NCBI GenBank assembly: GCA_947457615.1
Contig: CANGWK010000004.1
Span: forward strand, 62,001 to 126,000
Length of the DNA stretch: 64,000 nt
From: Flavobacteriaceae bacterium
GTDB taxonomy: Bacteria > Bacteroidota > Bacteroidia > Flavobacteriales > Flavobacteriaceae
Direction of reading: 5' to 3'
The notes under the pieces were generated by a model. That model worked only from the letters and a program-made list of their open reading frames with translations. It had not been told where the DNA came from and did not search any database. Both the position numbers and the translations under genes were made by a program. Shown in pieces: positions 51,675 through 59,360 of the stretch (positions are counted from its first letter, which is position 1; every line of letters begins with the position of its first letter).

Positions 51675-51746
51675 TGAAAAAAGAAAATCCCAAACTAAAT
51701 CAATTCAAGAAAGCTTGATTATTTAGTTTGGAATTTCCTTTTTATT
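51675..51746. repeat. Scar repeat unit 3, terminator-like hairpin next to the left att repeat
   Basis: aaaaaagaaaatcccaaactaaat...atttagtttggaatttccttttt; preceded by cttcccaacaaagct. Confidence 0.75.
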
Positions 51747-51762
51747 CGTGACCACGGTGGGA
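51744..51762. repeat. Left att-like direct repeat (tRNA-Leu 3' end remnant)
   Basis: attcgtgaccacggtggga, identical to 59342-59360 at the tRNA-Leu 3' end. Confidence 0.85.
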
Positions 51763-51942
51763 ACTGAACCCGTGTATTTTGTTGTTTTTAAAAATATCTA
51801 AAAACCATATAAATAAAGGCTTTAAGAGAATTTACTAAAAAAATAGAAACGATTAAATACATTAAAACACACTTTTCGTTAACTAACGGTTAACTAGATT
51901 AAAATTTTTGTTTATCTTTGAAATGTTCAAAAAGCAAAAATT

Positions 51943-53250
51943 ATGGCAACTTCAAAATGTTTACTTCAAAGTAAAAGCGATAACGCAAATATTTATATTC
52001 AATTTTCGATAAACAGAAAACAAGTTTATAAAAGAAAAACAGGTTTTGTAATTAATTCAAAAGATTGGAGCGAAACCAACTCGCAACCAATACAAAAAAA
52101 CACAGAATTAAAAGCGATAAAATCTAAACTAGATAAATTAATCAATTTTATAAACGATGCTTATAATGAATCGGTAAGTTTTGGCGAAACCATTACAGGC
52201 GATTGGTTACAACTTCAAATTGATTTATTCAATAATAAAGTACAGGTTATTGAATTAGACGTATTGACTAACTACATTCAAAAATATATTGACGAAGCAC
52301 CCTATAAACGTAATGCAAAAAGCGGAACGGGTTTAAGTGCTGGTAGAACCCAAAATTTAAAGCTATTTAAAAATACTATTTTACGCTTCGAAGTTGAGGT
52401 TTTGAAAGGTAAAAGCGTTTTGATTAAAAATGTTAATTTGAAATTTGCCGAAGACTACAAAAGCTGGTTGTTTAATCAAAAGTATTCAATAAATTATATC
52501 GGTAAAAACATTGACAACTTGAAAACCATTTGTTTAGATGCTTATAAAAATGATATTGAAATCTCAACACAATTAAAAAATATTAAGTCAATTTCAGAGA
52601 ATAAAGCACCCGAACAAATTATTTATTTAAGTGAAGACGAACAGGAACAAATAAAAAACGCTCCTATAATTCGCGAGGCAATTATAAACGCTCGTAAATG
52701 GCTATTGCTTGGTTGTTTAATTGGGCAACGTGGAGGCGATTTGTTGAATATTACAGATAAAAATATAAAAGAGTTAAACGGAATTAAGATAATTGAACTA
52801 AAGCAACAAAAAACAGGTAAATTGGTTGCAATACCATTACTACCCGAAGCACTTGAAATAATCGAAAGCGGTTTACCTTATAAAATTTCATTAGCACGTT
52901 ATAACGAATATATTAAAGACGTTTGTCAAGAGGCTGGAATAAATGAATTGATAACAGGGCGAATAAAAGAAACAAGCCGAAACGCTACAACCATAGAAAC
53001 AAAACCAAAATATAAGTTTATTACTTCCCACGTTTCTAGGCGTTCGTTTGCTACTAATTTTTACGGACGTATTCCAACACCCGTATTAATGAATATAACG
53101 GCACACGGAACAGAAAAAATGTTTTTATCTTACATAGGGAAAACCACATACGATAACGCTTATCAAATGTTAGAATATTTTAGTAAGTTAGCACCAAAGG
53201 AAAAAACACCGCCACAAATGGAGGTTATACACAACACAGGCACTAAATAA
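51943..53250 (+). CDS. Tyrosine recombinase / integrase
   Basis: Arm-binding N-terminus (KCLLQSKSDNANIYIQFSINRKQVYKRKTGFVI), LGCLIGQRGGDLLNIT, SHVSRRSFATNFYGRIPTPVLMNITAHGTEKMFLSYIGKT. Confidence 0.94.
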   Translation: MATSKCLLQSKSDNANIYIQFSINRKQVYKRKTGFVINSKDWSETNSQPIQKNTELKAIKSKLDKLINFINDAYNESVSFGETITGDWLQLQIDLFNNKVQVIELDVLTNYIQKYIDEAPYKRNAKSGTGLSAGRTQNLKLFKNTILRFEVEVLKGKSVLIKNVNLKFAEDYKSWLFNQKYSINYIGKNIDNLKTICLDAYKNDIEISTQLKNIKSISENKAPEQIIYLSEDEQEQIKNAPIIREAIINARKWLLLGCLIGQRGGDLLNITDKNIKELNGIKIIELKQQKTGKLVAIPLLPEALEIIESGLPYKISLARYNEYIKDVCQEAGINELITGRIKETSRNATTIETKPKYKFITSHVSRRSFATNFYGRIPTPVLMNITAHGTEKMFLSYIGKTTYDNAYQMLEYFSKLAPKEKTPPQMEVIHNTGTK

Positions 53251-53263
53251 ATACTTTGTTCAA

Positions 53264-54205
53264 ATGGCTAATAATTACGAAAATGTAATTGAAATACTGA
53301 AAAAAATTGATTATTCAATTATTGATGACGAACTAAATAATTACTTTGAAAACCTAACAGAAAGTGAAGCAATTGATTTTTTAAAATGGTTTGAATTTGA
53401 TTTGTTAAGCAATTGGAAAATAAATAAAAAATTAAACTCACAACAAACCAATATTGTTACAAATAAATTATTTGCTGGACATAGAGAAAAATTTAATCAA
53501 AAAATTGATTGTTTAGAAAATTGGCTAAAAGACAAAAAAACAAATAAGCCAATTAATTTAAAAAGCGTCAAAATCACAATAAGTAATAATTTAACTTTTA
53601 CTCAATATAAGAATGATTATGTTTTATTGCTTGAAAACTATTTAAAGCAATACGTTGACAATACAGAACAAACATTTATTCAACAACAACTTTTTTGTTT
53701 TAATGAATTTTTATCGTTTGTTGTTAACGGGGCAATGACAAAAGCAAAAAAACAAATGTTGCTGGAGGACTTGGAACAATCTACAACATTAGAAAATTTA
53801 CAACAAAGTACAGAACAAAAAATTGAATTTTTAGAATACAAATTAAAAGACGTTTCAAATAATAAAACACCTCAACAATCACAACCAAAACCAATAAATA
53901 AAACTAAAGATTATAAAAATACTATTTGGTTCAAAACAGGAATTACATTAGCTACGGGCGAAGCATTTAATTTATATTATAAATATAAAGAAGACAAAGG
54001 ACATTTTACAAAATTATGTTTAGAACTTGGATTTGAAAAAAAATATCGTCCTTACTTTTCAGAAACAATAAACAATAACGATAGTGACAAAAATACATTT
54101 GCCAATAAAGATAAACTTCAAAAGTTACATAAATATTTAACAGAAAATCAATTGAATTTTGGAGCTGAATTTTTAAGAAAATACAATCAAATTGAACCCG
54201 AATAA
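53264..54205 (+). CDS. Island protein of unknown function
   Basis: Follows the integrase by 13 bp; C-terminal GEAFNLYYKYKEDKGHFTKLCLELGFEKKYRPYFSETIN resembles tails seen on other Bacteroidetes island proteins. Confidence 0.6.
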   Translation: MANNYENVIEILKKIDYSIIDDELNNYFENLTESEAIDFLKWFEFDLLSNWKINKKLNSQQTNIVTNKLFAGHREKFNQKIDCLENWLKDKKTNKPINLKSVKITISNNLTFTQYKNDYVLLLENYLKQYVDNTEQTFIQQQLFCFNEFLSFVVNGAMTKAKKQMLLEDLEQSTTLENLQQSTEQKIEFLEYKLKDVSNNKTPQQSQPKPINKTKDYKNTIWFKTGITLATGEAFNLYYKYKEDKGHFTKLCLELGFEKKYRPYFSETINNNDSDKNTFANKDKLQKLHKYLTENQLNFGAEFLRKYNQIEPE

Positions 54206-54208
54206 ATG

Positions 54209-54243
54209 CGGTACTAAAACGGTACTAAAACGGTACGGTACTG
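54209..54243. repeat. Iteron-like repeats (cggtactaaaa)n
   Basis: cggtactaaaa-cggtactaaaa-cggta-cggtactg, followed by an inverted tagtacc. Confidence 0.75.
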
Positions 54244-54275
54244 TAAAATAGTACCAAACATTTAGAAACACTTTT

Positions 54276-54301
54276 GCTCTTATTAATCTTATTATAAGAG
54301 C
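54276..54301. promoter_or_regulatory. Inverted repeat immediately upstream of island HTH gene
   Basis: gctcttat-taatcttatt-ataagagc ends 3 nt before the ATG at 54305. Confidence 0.6.
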
Positions 54302-54304
54302 ATT

Positions 54305-54571
54305 ATGAACACACAAATTTTTTTAAACGGCATTACACTACAACAATTAGCCGAAGCACTTGCACCTCTTTTACAACCTCAACAGGTTAAACAAACAGAA
54401 CCCGAAAACGACTTTGTTACACGGGAAGAAGTTTGTAAACTATTATCGTTCAATAAAACGACTTTATACAAACATACCAAAAGCGGTAAACTTTTGAGTT
54501 ATGGCATTGGCAATAGGGTTTTGTATAGTAGAAAACAAGTACTTGAAGCCGTTAAACCTATTAATCATTAA
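54305..54571 (+). CDS. Helix-turn-helix (excisionase-like) protein
   Basis: DFVTREEVCKLLSFNKTTLYKHTKSGKLLSYGIGNRVLYSRKQVLEAV. Confidence 0.88.
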   Translation: MNTQIFLNGITLQQLAEALAPLLQPQQVKQTEPENDFVTREEVCKLLSFNKTTLYKHTKSGKLLSYGIGNRVLYSRKQVLEAVKPINH

Positions 54572-54576
54572 TTGTT

Positions 54577-55887
54577 ATGAGTTCAAATAAAAAACAGGCA
54601 AAAGGTTTAATCGATTTAAGCAACGCAATTGACAAAGCAATACAAAGCGAACCAAAAGAAGTATTAAAAGCTGGTTTTATACTTCCTACTAACTACGGAA
54701 CACCGCCCGACTATCAAAGTAGATTTAATTATTTTCAAACTGAATTTATACAATACAATTCAGATATACCAAAAGAACTAAAGGACGAATTTAATTTTCT
54801 TAAACAACTAATTAAACCCGAAAGTGAATACATAGAAACTAAACTTCAATATTATAAAATCGATGTTAACGAAGCAATACCACCACCACAGATAGCTTGG
54901 AGTTTATACAATACTAAAACAGATATTTTTAATGTTTTAGGAACACTTGGCAACTTTAGTTTGATTATTGGTAAAGCCAAAAGCCGAAAATCGTTTTTTA
55001 TAAATATTGCAGTTTCAACCGCATTAAGTAAAGATTTAATTCTAAAGCGATTTAAAAGCGATTTGCCACAGGAACAAAACCAAGTACTATACTTTGATAC
55101 CGAACAAAGTAAATATCACGTTCAAATAGCATTAAAGCGTATTTGTAAGCAAATTAATGTTGACGAACCACATAATTTGCACGTTTATCATTTAAGAAGT
55201 TTAACACCCTTTGAACGATTAGAAGCTATTGAACATTTGATTTATAACAATGATAAAATAGGATTTGTAATTATTGACGGAATTAAGGATTTAGTCACTT
55301 CAATAAATGACGAAAGTGAAGCCACAATGATTGCAAGTAAATTGCTTAAATGGACTGAAGAACGAAATATTCATATCGTAACCGTATTGCACCAAAACAA
55401 AAGCGATAATAATGCGAGGGGACATATTGGAACGGAATTAATAAATAAAGCTGAAACGGTTTTATCTATTACGAAAGCTGAAAACGATAATAATATTTCA
55501 ATTGTAGAACCACAACAATGTAGGAATATTGAACCCGAAATTTTTGCCTTTGAAATTAACGAATTTGGACTTCCTGTAATAGCTGAAAATTTTGAGTTAA
55601 GAACAGAAACCAATAAAAATAAATTTGATATTACAGATTTAGAAGACTTTAAAAAATATCAATTATTAACGGAGGTTTTCAGTAAAGGCGAAAGTTTTAT
55701 GTATGGCAAATTAATAGAACAACTTCAAATTGCTTTTAAAAATCAATACTCTAAAAAGTTAGCCGACAATAGAACAAAGCTACTTATTACATACTGTTCA
55801 AATAACGGCTGGTTAATTCAATCCAAAGCAAAAGCACCTTACACACTTGGAGCATTTAACGAAGTAGAAAAACAAGTAAATTTTTAA
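54577..55887 (+). CDS. RepA/RecA-like AAA ATPase
   Basis: LGTLGNFSLIIGKAKSRKSFFINIAVSTAL, VLYFDTEQSKYHVQIALKRICKQ, IGFVIIDGIKDLVTSINDESEATMIASKLLKWTEERNIHIVTVLHQNKSDNNARGHIGTELINKAETVLSI. Confidence 0.85.
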   Translation: MSSNKKQAKGLIDLSNAIDKAIQSEPKEVLKAGFILPTNYGTPPDYQSRFNYFQTEFIQYNSDIPKELKDEFNFLKQLIKPESEYIETKLQYYKIDVNEAIPPPQIAWSLYNTKTDIFNVLGTLGNFSLIIGKAKSRKSFFINIAVSTALSKDLILKRFKSDLPQEQNQVLYFDTEQSKYHVQIALKRICKQINVDEPHNLHVYHLRSLTPFERLEAIEHLIYNNDKIGFVIIDGIKDLVTSINDESEATMIASKLLKWTEERNIHIVTVLHQNKSDNNARGHIGTELINKAETVLSITKAENDNNISIVEPQQCRNIEPEIFAFEINEFGLPVIAENFELRTETNKNKFDITDLEDFKKYQLLTEVFSKGESFMYGKLIEQLQIAFKNQYSKKLADNRTKLLITYCSNNGWLIQSKAKAPYTLGAFNEVEKQVNF

Positions 55888-55926
55888 TTCAATCGGTTTA
55901 CTATTCCTTAAATTTCAATTGTTATC

Positions 55927-56002
55927 GGTTTAGTTTAAGCGTATATATACGCTATTAAACTGATAAACCTTTGATATATGGTTTAGTAAACTAGTTTAAA
56001 CC
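55927..56002. repeat. Nested palindromes (candidate replication origin or operator)
   Basis: ggtttagtttaagcgtatatatacgctattaaactgataaacc with perfect core agcgtatatatacgct, then ggtttagtaaactagtttaaacc. Confidence 0.7.
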
Positions 56003-56010
56003 TTAAACCT

Positions 56011-57021
56011 ATGAAACAATATAAATATAGTTTAGATAGAAGTAGTAAAAAGTTTATTTGTCCTAAATGCAATAAAAAAACCTTTGTTAAATACATTGAA
56101 ACTGAAACAGGGAACTACCTAAATGATACGTTCGGACGTTGTGACCGTGAAAGTAGTTGCAGTTATCAATGTACACCCAAGGGCGAATTTAAAAATAGTT
56201 TTGAAGTCGTAAATATTCCACCTAACGAACCAAGTTTTCACAATTACAATTTAGTTAGTCAAAGCGGTCGGAACTATAAACAAAATAATTTTGTTCAATT
56301 CCTTAAAACCATATTTTCAGAAACTGAAGTAAAAAAAGCAATATTAAAATACTTAATAGGAACTTCAAAACATTGGAACGGTGCAAATATATTTTGGCAA
56401 ATTGATAATAATGAGAATGTAAGGCACGGCAAAATAATGTTGGTTAATTCTGAAACAGGAAAACGAATAAAAGATAATAACGGCAAAGGTTTAATTAATA
56501 GTGTGCGAAGTGTTTTGAAATTAAAAAACTTCAATCTTAATCAATGTTTATTCGGTTTACACCTTATTAATGAAACAAACCAAAAGACCATTGCATTAGT
56601 TGAGGGCGAAAAAACAGCCGTTATAATGAGTGTTTTTAAACCTCAATACACTTGGTTAGCAACAGGAGGGAAACACGGCTTAAAATACGAATTTTTACAA
56701 CCTATAAAGCAGTATAAAATTATAGCGTTCCCCGACAAAAGCGAGTATTCTGATTGGTTGCAAAAGTCAATTGAATTAAACGGCTTCGGATTTAATATTG
56801 TTGTTAGTGATTGGCTGGAACAAACGGACTACGAATATGGAACAGATTTAGCCGATGTTTATATAAATGAAATAAAAGAAGCTAAAAAAGTTGAGGTAAT
56901 TTATTCAGAAACCGAACAAGTAATTTACAGAATAGAACAACACACGCCCGAAATTTGGGAACTTATTAAAACATTTGATTTAGTAGATACTAACGGAACA
57001 GAAATTAAAAAAGTAATATAA
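56011..57021 (+). CDS. DUF6371-like primase/toprim-type protein with zinc ribbon
   Basis: KFICPKCNKKTFVKYIETETGNYLNDTFGRCDRESSCSYQCTPKGEF; ALVEGEKTAVIMSVFKPQYTWLATGGKHGL is toprim-like. Confidence 0.8.
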   Translation: MKQYKYSLDRSSKKFICPKCNKKTFVKYIETETGNYLNDTFGRCDRESSCSYQCTPKGEFKNSFEVVNIPPNEPSFHNYNLVSQSGRNYKQNNFVQFLKTIFSETEVKKAILKYLIGTSKHWNGANIFWQIDNNENVRHGKIMLVNSETGKRIKDNNGKGLINSVRSVLKLKNFNLNQCLFGLHLINETNQKTIALVEGEKTAVIMSVFKPQYTWLATGGKHGLKYEFLQPIKQYKIIAFPDKSEYSDWLQKSIELNGFGFNIVVSDWLEQTDYEYGTDLADVYINEIKEAKKVEVIYSETEQVIYRIEQHTPEIWELIKTFDLVDTNGTEIKKVI

Positions 57022-57072
57022 AATAACTACATTTGTTAAATGAAATAAAAAAAATCACAACATATCGACAAA

Positions 57073-57217
57073 CTTATTCTTGCTAGCAAAACCGACCAAG
57101 TTTAAAATTTACACATTGAATAAGAATTGCACACGTCAAAGCGTGGGCTTTCTTATTATGTGTATGCGTTCTTGGTCGGACGTTGCTAGCAAATAAGAAA
57201 TGTCCCACGCTGGTTTT
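57073..57217 (+). ncRNA. Bistable palindromic element with two mutually exclusive stems
   Basis: Stem A 57073-57100/57171-57197 (cttattcttgctagcaaaaccgaccaag / cttggtcggacgttgctagcaaataag); stem B 57140-57157/57192-57211 (agcgtgggctttcttatt / aataagaaatgtcccacgct) followed by a T-run. Confidence 0.55.
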
Positions 57218-57253
57218 TTTGTAGTTAATTATTTAATTTAAAAAAATGTAACA

Positions 57254-57943
57254 ATGAAAAAAAATTTGACAACTGAACAACTAGAAATGAGAGCGAAAAC
57301 AAACAAGAAAATACTAAAATTTGGTTGCCTACCAATTTTTATTTTATGTGTTTTTTTAATAGTCGTTTTTAATTTTACCGATGACAAAAAAGCAAGTTCA
57401 ATAAAGATTAATACTAATATTGATAGTATTGTTTCTGTAGTTAAAAAATCCAAAGATTTTGAAATTAAAGAAGTATATTATAATAAAAAAGATAGTTCTT
57501 TTAACATTGCTATAACTAATAAAGACAACGTAATTAAAGAGCACGACTATTCAATACTTTATTTTGATAATTTATTTCATTTAGATAAAATCGAAGAAAT
57601 TGAGGGTGTTTATTTGTATGAATATAAAAACGGTAAATCTTTTAAAAATGACGACTATAATGAATATCTAACTTGCGAAAGTAAAAATTTAGCAAATCGA
57701 ATTAAGAAATTTGAAGATACAGGTTTTGAATATAGTATAAAATCATATTTAGAAAAGAATGTAGACGATCCAACAGATTTAGAAATTACTAATAAAACTG
57801 TTCTAGGAGAAAATGCAAACGGAACATTTTCAGTTAGAGTTTCATTTCGTTCAAAAAATGCTTTTGGAACTTTAATTATGCACACTGTTACTTGCGATAT
57901 AGACAAAGAGGGTAACGGGAAAAACATTATATTTGATAATTAA
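57254..57943 (+). CDS. Membrane-anchored island cargo protein, unknown function
   Basis: Single N-terminal TM (ILKFGCLPIFILCVFLIVVFNF), hydrophilic C-terminal domain. Confidence 0.65.
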   Translation: MKKNLTTEQLEMRAKTNKKILKFGCLPIFILCVFLIVVFNFTDDKKASSIKINTNIDSIVSVVKKSKDFEIKEVYYNKKDSSFNIAITNKDNVIKEHDYSILYFDNLFHLDKIEEIEGVYLYEYKNGKSFKNDDYNEYLTCESKNLANRIKKFEDTGFEYSIKSYLEKNVDDPTDLEITNKTVLGENANGTFSVRVSFRSKNAFGTLIMHTVTCDIDKEGNGKNIIFDN

Positions 57944-57964
57944 TTAATTTAATAATTTAAAAAA

Positions 57965-58528
57965 GTGAAGATGAGAAAAATAGTATTAGGATTGTTGATG
58001 GTAATAAGTTTTTCAGCATACAGTCAAGAAACAGAATTTACTTTTAATAGTGAAAGAGGTATGTCTGATTTTATAGTTACAACGGTTGAAGGCAAAACTG
58101 CTCCCGAAATTTATAAAAAAATGATTCATTGGATAAAAGTAACTTACAAGAATCCAAACGAAGTTATACTCTCAACTATTGAAAATGAATATTTAAGGTT
58201 TGAGGGGGTATCGGACATATCAACATTTAAATGTAAGTATCAAATAGAAATATCAATAAGAGAGGGAAAATATAAATATGATTTAATTGGTTTTCAAGTT
58301 TATGTTGGACCAAATCAATTGGGAGTACCAGTTGGATGGAATGACTTTAAATCCATTAATTTTATTAAAAATAGTACAAAAGAAAGTTTAGAAAACATGT
58401 ACAAGAAAGATGGAACTTATAGAGCTTGGTGTAAGTATACCCCCGAAATACCAACATATTTTAATAATCTAAACAAATCATTGTTTGAAAGCATAGTTTC
58501 AGCCGTAAAAAAAACAGATGGTTGGTAA
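57965..58528 (+). CDS. Exported DUF4468-like (TBP-like fold) island cargo protein
   Basis: Signal peptide MRKIVLGLLMVISFSAYSQ; GMSDFIVTTVEGKTAPEIYKKMIHWIKVTYKNPNEVILSTIENEYLRFEG. Confidence 0.7.
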   Translation: MKMRKIVLGLLMVISFSAYSQETEFTFNSERGMSDFIVTTVEGKTAPEIYKKMIHWIKVTYKNPNEVILSTIENEYLRFEGVSDISTFKCKYQIEISIREGKYKYDLIGFQVYVGPNQLGVPVGWNDFKSINFIKNSTKESLENMYKKDGTYRAWCKYTPEIPTYFNNLNKSLFESIVSAVKKTDGW

Positions 58529-58544
58529 GAAAACTAATTAAAAT

Positions 58545-58577
58545 AAAAAGAGCAACTTTAATCGGTTGCTCTTTTTT
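58545..58577. terminator. Terminator (gagcaac/gttgctc family)
   Basis: aaaaagagcaactttaatcggttgctctttttt. Confidence 0.75.
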
Positions 58578-58696
58578 TTGTTCAAATAGCAAGACCACAG
58601 GCAAAGCGGTAATGATTAAACAAATATAACTATAATTTTTAGCTATTAAAAATATTTATTACATTTGTTTTATCTATAATAGATTAATTTAGACAA

Positions 58697-58981
58697 ATGG
58701 CAAAAGGTATTAAAACAGGAGGGCGAACCGCTGGAGTAGTAAACAAGACAACTACAGAAATAAGGGAACATTTCCAAAATTTAGTTTCAAGTAATTTAGA
58801 GCAATTAAACGAAGACCTAAAAAGTTTAGAACCACTACAACGACTTAAAATGATTATTGAATTATCAAAATTTGTAGTTCCAACACTAAAAGCAACTGAA
58901 CTAACAACAAGTGAAGACAATGGCTTTAAACCTATTGAAGTCCGTTATATTACTTGGGGCGAAAATACTATTGAAATATGA
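58697..58981 (+). CDS. Small mobile-element-associated protein
   Basis: MAKGIKTGGRTAGVVNKTTTEIREHFQNLVSSNLEQLNEDLKSL resembles GGR-AG-NK-type small proteins common in Bacteroidetes phages and islands. Confidence 0.7.
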   Translation: MAKGIKTGGRTAGVVNKTTTEIREHFQNLVSSNLEQLNEDLKSLEPLQRLKMIIELSKFVVPTLKATELTTSEDNGFKPIEVRYITWGENTIEI

Positions 58982-59256
58982 TAGTAATTAACAACCCTAA
59001 AGACTTGTATAATTTGATTTTAAAAGATAATCTTAATGTTAAGCAAGTAAATACAATTTTAGAAAGTTTCTTAATTAAAAAATCATTTATTGTGTTTGAT
59101 GACTATAAACCTATTCAAATAGTCGAAATATTAAAAGAGTTTTTTTTAAAACATACAGGAACGGGCGAACAACCTATTTTTATTGATTTTCAAAAGAATG
59201 AATTAGACGTTAAAGATTTATTCAATAAAGAAAATAACTTAATTCAATTTGTATAA
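58978..59256 (+). CDS. Island protein of unknown function
   Basis: ATGA overlap with the preceding gene; MIVINNPKDLYNLILKDNLNVKQVNTILESF. Confidence 0.6.
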   Translation: MIVINNPKDLYNLILKDNLNVKQVNTILESFLIKKSFIVFDDYKPIQIVEILKEFFLKHTGTGEQPIFIDFQKNELDVKDLFNKENNLIQFV

Positions 59257-59341
59257 AAAAAAACACCCTAAAAAGAGCGTTTTTTAAAATGGTTAACTAA
59301 ATGTTAACTAAAACCTTTGTAAAACCTTATAAATAGGCTTA

Positions 59342-59360
59342 ATTCGTGACCACGGTGGGA
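59342..59360. repeat. Right att-like direct repeat, overlapping tRNA-Leu 3' end
   Basis: attcgtgaccacggtggga, identical to 51744-51762. Confidence 0.87.

Follow-up and report, generated by a model that had tools for sequence, protein, structure and literature searches.

Transcription attenuators of the trp type, such as the Rfam family Bacteroid-trp (RF01692), are 5' leaders with a small open reading frame (ORF) near the start, in which strands pair either as 1:2 plus 3:4, the latter a terminator followed by a U tract, or as 2:3, the antiterminator. Structured leaders are also reported from Flavobacterium psychrophilum, in which unannotated structured RNAs (5' regions and Rfp small RNAs) include some 5' leaders without Rfam hits (PMC9723704). 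The trp-type attenuators are the closest in topology to an element in a 64,000-nucleotide stretch (the window) of a Flavobacteriaceae genome (assembly GCA_947457615.1, contig CANGWK010000004.1, positions 62,001 to 126,000), where a core structured RNA occupies window positions 57062-57213 of the plus strand (covariance-model match, 168.9 bits with R1). The element probably belongs, at a rough probability of 0.57, to a new family of horizontally moving 5' leader RNAs that would act as a transcription-attenuation switch for the gene behind it.

Two exclusive pairings in a plus-strand RNA

An earlier note on the window sequence described two long stems competing at this site, and its sequence and coordinates are correct. 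All features named here lie on the plus strand. Stem A pairs 57073-57100 with 57171-57197 and corresponds to the long hairpin of state I (57080-57192), with helices P2 (57080-57089/57183-57192) and P3 (57092-57100/57171-57179) and with P4 and P5 enclosed. Stem B corresponds to the terminator-like hairpin of state II (57140-57211), with arms at 57140-57157 and 57192-57211 and the tip GCGTTC[TTGGTC]GGACGT at 57166-57183; GG separates its 3' arm from a U tract of seven T (57214-57220), as the note had it. Stem B is built from the 3' strand of the long hairpin's tip and the 3' tail, and the strand GCGTGGGC is common to stem B and to the small overlapping hairpin that the note also saw, the apical hairpin of state I (strands b and c, 57129-57148). 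Likewise borne out, AATAAGAA occurs at 57119-57126 and 57192-57199, flanking TTCTTATT at 57150-57157. A remnant of the state II 5' hairpin spans 57073-57124, where CTTATTC (57073-57079) pairs with GAATAAG (57118-57124). Folding of both strands over 57060-57240, a check that the note proposed, yields -58.1 kcal/mol (plus) and -57.4 (minus), with z of -6.6 and -7.3 and none of 200 shuffles equally good. The 3' half by itself (57140-57213) reaches -32.2 kcal/mol as stem B plus the tip hairpin; since it forms stem B when folded alone, the two-state geometry is real.

Both folds are conserved among homologues. Covariation was counted on 100 aligned homologues, using model-based alignments because a MAFFT alignment mispaired distant copies. 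First, P2 and P3 (stem A) are paired in 97.9% of cells, with 560 two-sided changes and a covariation score of 0.973 versus 0.209 when shuffled. Second, the stem B core is paired in 99.4%, with two-sided changes in five of seven pairs, against at most 57% for slid controls, and stem B is fully compensated in four separate homologues (L028, L048, L228 and L238) that were retrieved by covariance model, not by the stem B pattern. Third, the apical hairpin, in competition with stem B for a strand, is paired in 98.7% of cells, with two-sided changes in three of seven pairs. P1, or a:d, is paired in 83% (65 two-sided cells) and a:b in 91.9% (22 two-sided cells), and the four inner pairings (a:b, c:d, b:c and a:d) all exceed permutation between copies. 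Homologues lacking compensatory changes, which the note named as the result that would speak against it, were looked for, and both stems proved to be compensated. Because the helices covary base by base, a coding explanation was set aside.

The two halves also fold separately across the family. Alone, the 3' half folds without a break from GGCGUGGG to CCCACGCU into a hairpin reaching the U tract, with the 3' strand of P3 as its tip loop; local (GGU/ACC) pairing around P3 makes the tip of this state II hairpin. With the stem B arms fixed, the interior z averages -2.9 and lies below -1.5 in 93 of 103 copies. The 5' half likewise folds into a hairpin, closed at its base by AGCGU/ACGCU or, in the SusC group, by AGCAU/AUGCU. 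At least four consecutive T make up the U tract in 88 of 103 homologues. As judged from these alignments, the hallmark of transcription attenuators is present, in that exclusive terminator and antiterminator pairings are both conserved; a U tract stands directly 3' of the terminator hairpin, and the RNA has a promoter upstream and a co-oriented gene downstream.

The strand bias of folding bears on what is selected. The plus strand folds better than the minus strand in 98 of 103 nonredundant copies (p = 6e-18), at a mean of -59.7 versus -50.9 kcal/mol, z is below -2 in all 103, and the better plus-strand folding comes from more G-U pairs (12.5% versus 7.4%). This comparison indicates that the element is selected as plus-strand RNA and not as single-stranded DNA (ssDNA). 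Of the three roles that the note offered, the attenuator-like RNA switch holds up through the compensatory changes, the plus-strand folding, a promoter upstream of most copies and the position as 5' leader of a co-oriented gene. Its recombination site and its replication or transfer origin do not, as the strand bias favours RNA and the copies adjoin many unrelated replication, recombinase and chromosomal genes; an attC or oriT single-stranded DNA site was rejected on that bias. A structured ssDNA site of any of these kinds, be it an attC-like recombination site, oriT or replication origin, would fit the palindromic sequence, the integrases, serine recombinases, Rep/primase genes and IS1595 elements near many loci, and the movement of the element between unrelated contexts with sharp boundaries. 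However, DNA-strand folding selected independently of G-U pairs is not seen among the 103 copies, many chromosomal SusC copies lie away from replication genes, and the element keeps a fixed orientation and distance relative to the gene, which leaves such a site very improbable.

In the attenuation model, four strands, found together in many copies, would adopt two exclusive pairings, a:b with c:d (state II) or b:c with a:d (state I). State II would consist of the a:b 5' hairpin and of the c:d hairpin, which with the U tract after it would terminate transcription. State I would arise when the 5' half invades the 3' half (b:c, plus a:d where strand a is kept), giving a single long hairpin, which would disrupt the terminator and allow polymerase to reach the gene. 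State I is the presumed default, ON, as it would zip up when the 3' strands emerge and is more stable on average; minimum free energy folds of lengthening window transcripts suggest such zipping. Something binding the 5' half would be expected to switch the leader off. Pairing between a downstream hairpin loop and the UGUCCC by strand d, seen in many copies, probably locks state I after read-through. Comparison of copies establishes the RNA strand, both pairings, the promoter and a fixed start-codon position; that c:d terminates transcription is what we infer.

Promoter, spacing and the genes behind the leader

Downstream ORFs and the split of the loci into groups A and S were assigned mechanically or by inspection. 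In the window, a candidate Bacteroidota -7 promoter element, TACATTTG, lies at 57028-57035, with no clear -33 element upstream of it. The motif TAnnTTTG is found upstream in 59 of 96 group A loci, versus a mean of 4 in shuffles, and in 52 of 55 group S loci, a grouping that itself partly used the motif. Four nucleotides (nt) past the window's promoter element is a Met-Lys-stop mini-ORF, ATGAAATAA (57040-57048). Across 73 loci, an upstream ATG is followed by a stop within one codon in 36 of 58 cases; control trinucleotides give 8/47 (GTA), 5/36 (AGT) and 16/118 (ATA), and those listed fall at roughly 3-24%.

Most group A loci have 45-58 nt between the RNA and the start codon, a stretch that holds a hairpin with a loop that pairs with the UGUCCC adjoining strand d. 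This kissing pair covaries (UGUCCC/GGGACA, AGUUCC/GGAACU, AAACCC/GGGUUU, UAUCCC/GGGAUA): copies score 5.53 with their own partner versus 4.44 when permuted, the highest of 1000 permutations being 4.83, and rare tails score 5.47 versus 3.23. The downstream genes are unrelated in sequence, and 51 of 66 encode an N-terminal hydrophobic segment, versus 26% of the ORFs nearby; a lipobox is present in 16, a type IX secretion system (T9SS) sorting domain in 10 and a LamG domain in 9. Two copies (L306, L311) stand upstream of two-gene loci for large exported proteins, and by eye these loci resemble RHS/T9SS polymorphic toxin loci.

These features bear on an unlikely alternative, a stand-alone small RNA, in which a transcript of ~180 nt ending at the U tract would act in trans, for example via the P3 loop or a GGGACA-complementary tail, and the gene behind would be a mere neighbour. 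The RNA has its own promoter and its own terminator, and the window copy combines a clean U7 tract with the loss of the kissing hairpin, as such an RNA might. However, group A start codons keep their distance from the RNA in most loci, the homology blocks often reach the start codon, and in group A the hairpin past the RNA covaries with the RNA tail, covariation that requires both to be on a single transcript.

Group S copies have a divergent small gene on one side and a SusC/TonB receptor gene on the other; three of the five small genes checked encode a Cro/C1-type helix-turn-helix (HTH) protein. This group has neither kissing hairpin nor mini-ORF. That absence weakens a further alternative, slightly less likely than the small RNA, in which leader and kissing hairpin would control ribosome access or mRNA decay, perhaps with readout by a ribosome on the AUG-(X)-stop mini-ORF. 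Such a translation or mRNA-stability switch would account for the fixed short distance of the kissing hairpin 5' of the start codon, for the enrichment of mini-ORFs and for the imperfect U tracts in some group A copies. However, stem B and a strong U tract are kept in group S and in the window, although neither has the kissing hairpin and group S is also without the mini-ORF.

A conserved ATTCTTAGCA motif is found 20-60 nt after the U tract in the group S (SusC) leaders. A recurrent locus in Flavobacterium-like genomes (L245, L269, L270, L256, L289, L296-L300 and others) consists of a variable gene and a small HTH-type gene, divergent from the RNA and the SusC receptor. The variable gene is SLATT-like by eye in one case; elsewhere the neighbours are AbiE or methylase genes. 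Five copies of this locus occur in one genome (G017), with near-identical receptor N-termini. It is possibly a hypervariable defence or receptor locus.

Several observations weigh against the attenuation switch. State II is the less stable state, by 12-13 kcal/mol on average (12.7 over all copies, 6.6 in the SusC group) and by about 21 in the window, so reaching it would take a bound factor or a kinetic trap. Some group A copies have a U tract that is weak or broken up, and the group S receptor gene starts 200-1800 nt away, a distance that also suits a small RNA. The pattern that retrieved 42 loci included the stem B core, whose invariance in them is partly due to selection; thus, the stem B argument rests on the model-found copies. 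Because the homologues are related, shuffles overstate significance, whereas clade-specific compensations and slid controls are independent of relatedness. Finally, the window copy keeps both stems, the U tract, the promoter motif and the mini-ORF and has lost the kissing hairpin and strand a (other copies have the AGCGU/ACGCU base in strands a and b). It may be a simplified attenuator or a partly decayed switch, and decay would count against the model. Its closest relative, L011, is 96% identical, sits in the same type of island and likewise has no kissing hairpin.

A mobile family across Bacteroidota

A DNA search across 399 further genomes of the window's genus gave matches in 8, at identities down to 73% and in some cases in unrelated contexts. 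A covariance model built on seven of these relatives was positive in 42 of 351 family-level genomes, and a GTDB pattern scan with model confirmation placed copies in Flavobacteriales, Cytophagaceae, Chitinophagaceae and Saprospiraceae. With a second covariance model, 174 of 300 genomes of the window's genus are positive, with 1-7 copies each, as are 51 of 346 genomes across the phylum Bacteroidota, some outside the class. The window's own genome has three copies; the other two, L219 (G000:C12:43732-43893) and L295 (G000:C15:59748-59914), precede a C10-peptidase T9SS gene and a lipoprotein-like gene, and both have the kissing hairpin (UGUCUC/GAGACG or GAGACA). The covariance search that the earlier note had called for in Bacteroidetes islands thus leads beyond it, to a phylum-wide family with copies also outside islands and with a kissing hairpin and mini-ORF in other copies.

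No Rfam 15 family (4227 models, the T-box model included) matches the element, either in the window or in 27 homologous loci, in the regions scanned. Searches with blastn against phages and plasmids returned nothing or short pieces at chance level, and a pattern scan of viral contigs gave a single match that the covariance model does not confirm. No described family matches in the open-access literature (PMC9723704 and PMC2864571 included; subscription papers and supplements lie outside this search). As far as Rfam and that literature show, the RNA family is previously uncatalogued. Matches to Flavo-1 (RF01705) slightly below the gathering score occur near some copies (L012, 13294-13371 on the minus strand and 2033-2098 on the plus strand).

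Many loci adjoin tyrosine or serine recombinases, IS1595 transposases, and AbiE-type and restriction genes. Homology blocks between copies in unrelated contexts often cover just the stretch from the promoter to the tail or start codon; thus, the leader itself is a transferable module. The window copy travels in an integrative island of 7.6 kb (51744-59360), a setting that the earlier note had recognized. A 19-bp direct repeat, ATTCGTGACCACGGTGGGA, at 51744-51762 and 59342-59360 marks attL and attR of this island at tRNA-Leu, the second copy lying at the 3' end of the tRNA-Leu gene. Between the repeats are a tyrosine integrase (51943-53250), an excisionase-like gene and AAA/DUF6371 replication-like genes. 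Immediately around the element, the upstream gene (56011-57021, plus strand) encodes a primase-like DUF6371 protein with a zinc ribbon, and the downstream cargo gene (57254-57943, plus strand) a protein of 229 amino acids with an N-terminal hydrophobic segment and no Pfam family above the cut-off. The island also has a basic 94-amino-acid ORF at 58697-58981, with no Pfam family above the cut-off and a counterpart at the same position in the sister island of L011 (MAKGIKTGGR...).

It is conceivable, though doubtful, that a phylum-wide mobile cassette of promoter, AUG-(X)-stop, four-strand switch and kissing hairpin puts the variable surface of Bacteroidota under one RNA-sensed signal. If so, a cassette fronting genes for accessory surface or secreted proteins and SusC receptors would constitute a new class of sensing leader. 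In the window's genus the RNA is present in over half of the sampled genomes, yet Rfam holds no model of it. The two-state design and the association with exported proteins and TonB receptors would predict a common signal for accessory surface proteins in Bacteroidota.

Comparison with known systems

Similar to trp-type attenuators, the element combines a 5' leader and a small ORF near its start with 1:2 plus 3:4 or 2:3 pairing. However, unlike them, its state I also joins strand 1 to strand 4 in a very long hairpin, and its targets are surface or secreted proteins and not biosynthesis, with no Rfam match. Its ORF is only AUG-(0/1 codon)-stop, lacks regulatory codons and lies outside strand 1: in place of a control-codon ORF overlapping that strand there is only AUG-(X)-stop upstream of strand a, and in group S none. 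With riboswitches and protein-responsive leaders the element shares a conserved structured 5' leader, exclusivity of terminator and antiterminator, and pseudoknot-like contacts, but its genes have export in common rather than a pathway, and none of the 4227 Rfam models matches in the regions scanned. The F. psychrophilum article describes none of its RNAs as this family, its supplementary tables being outside the comparison. Like attC and other structured ssDNA, the element is a long imperfect palindrome in mobile DNA; unlike them, it appears to be selected as a plus-strand RNA, with a promoter, a U tract and fixed spacing to the gene behind.
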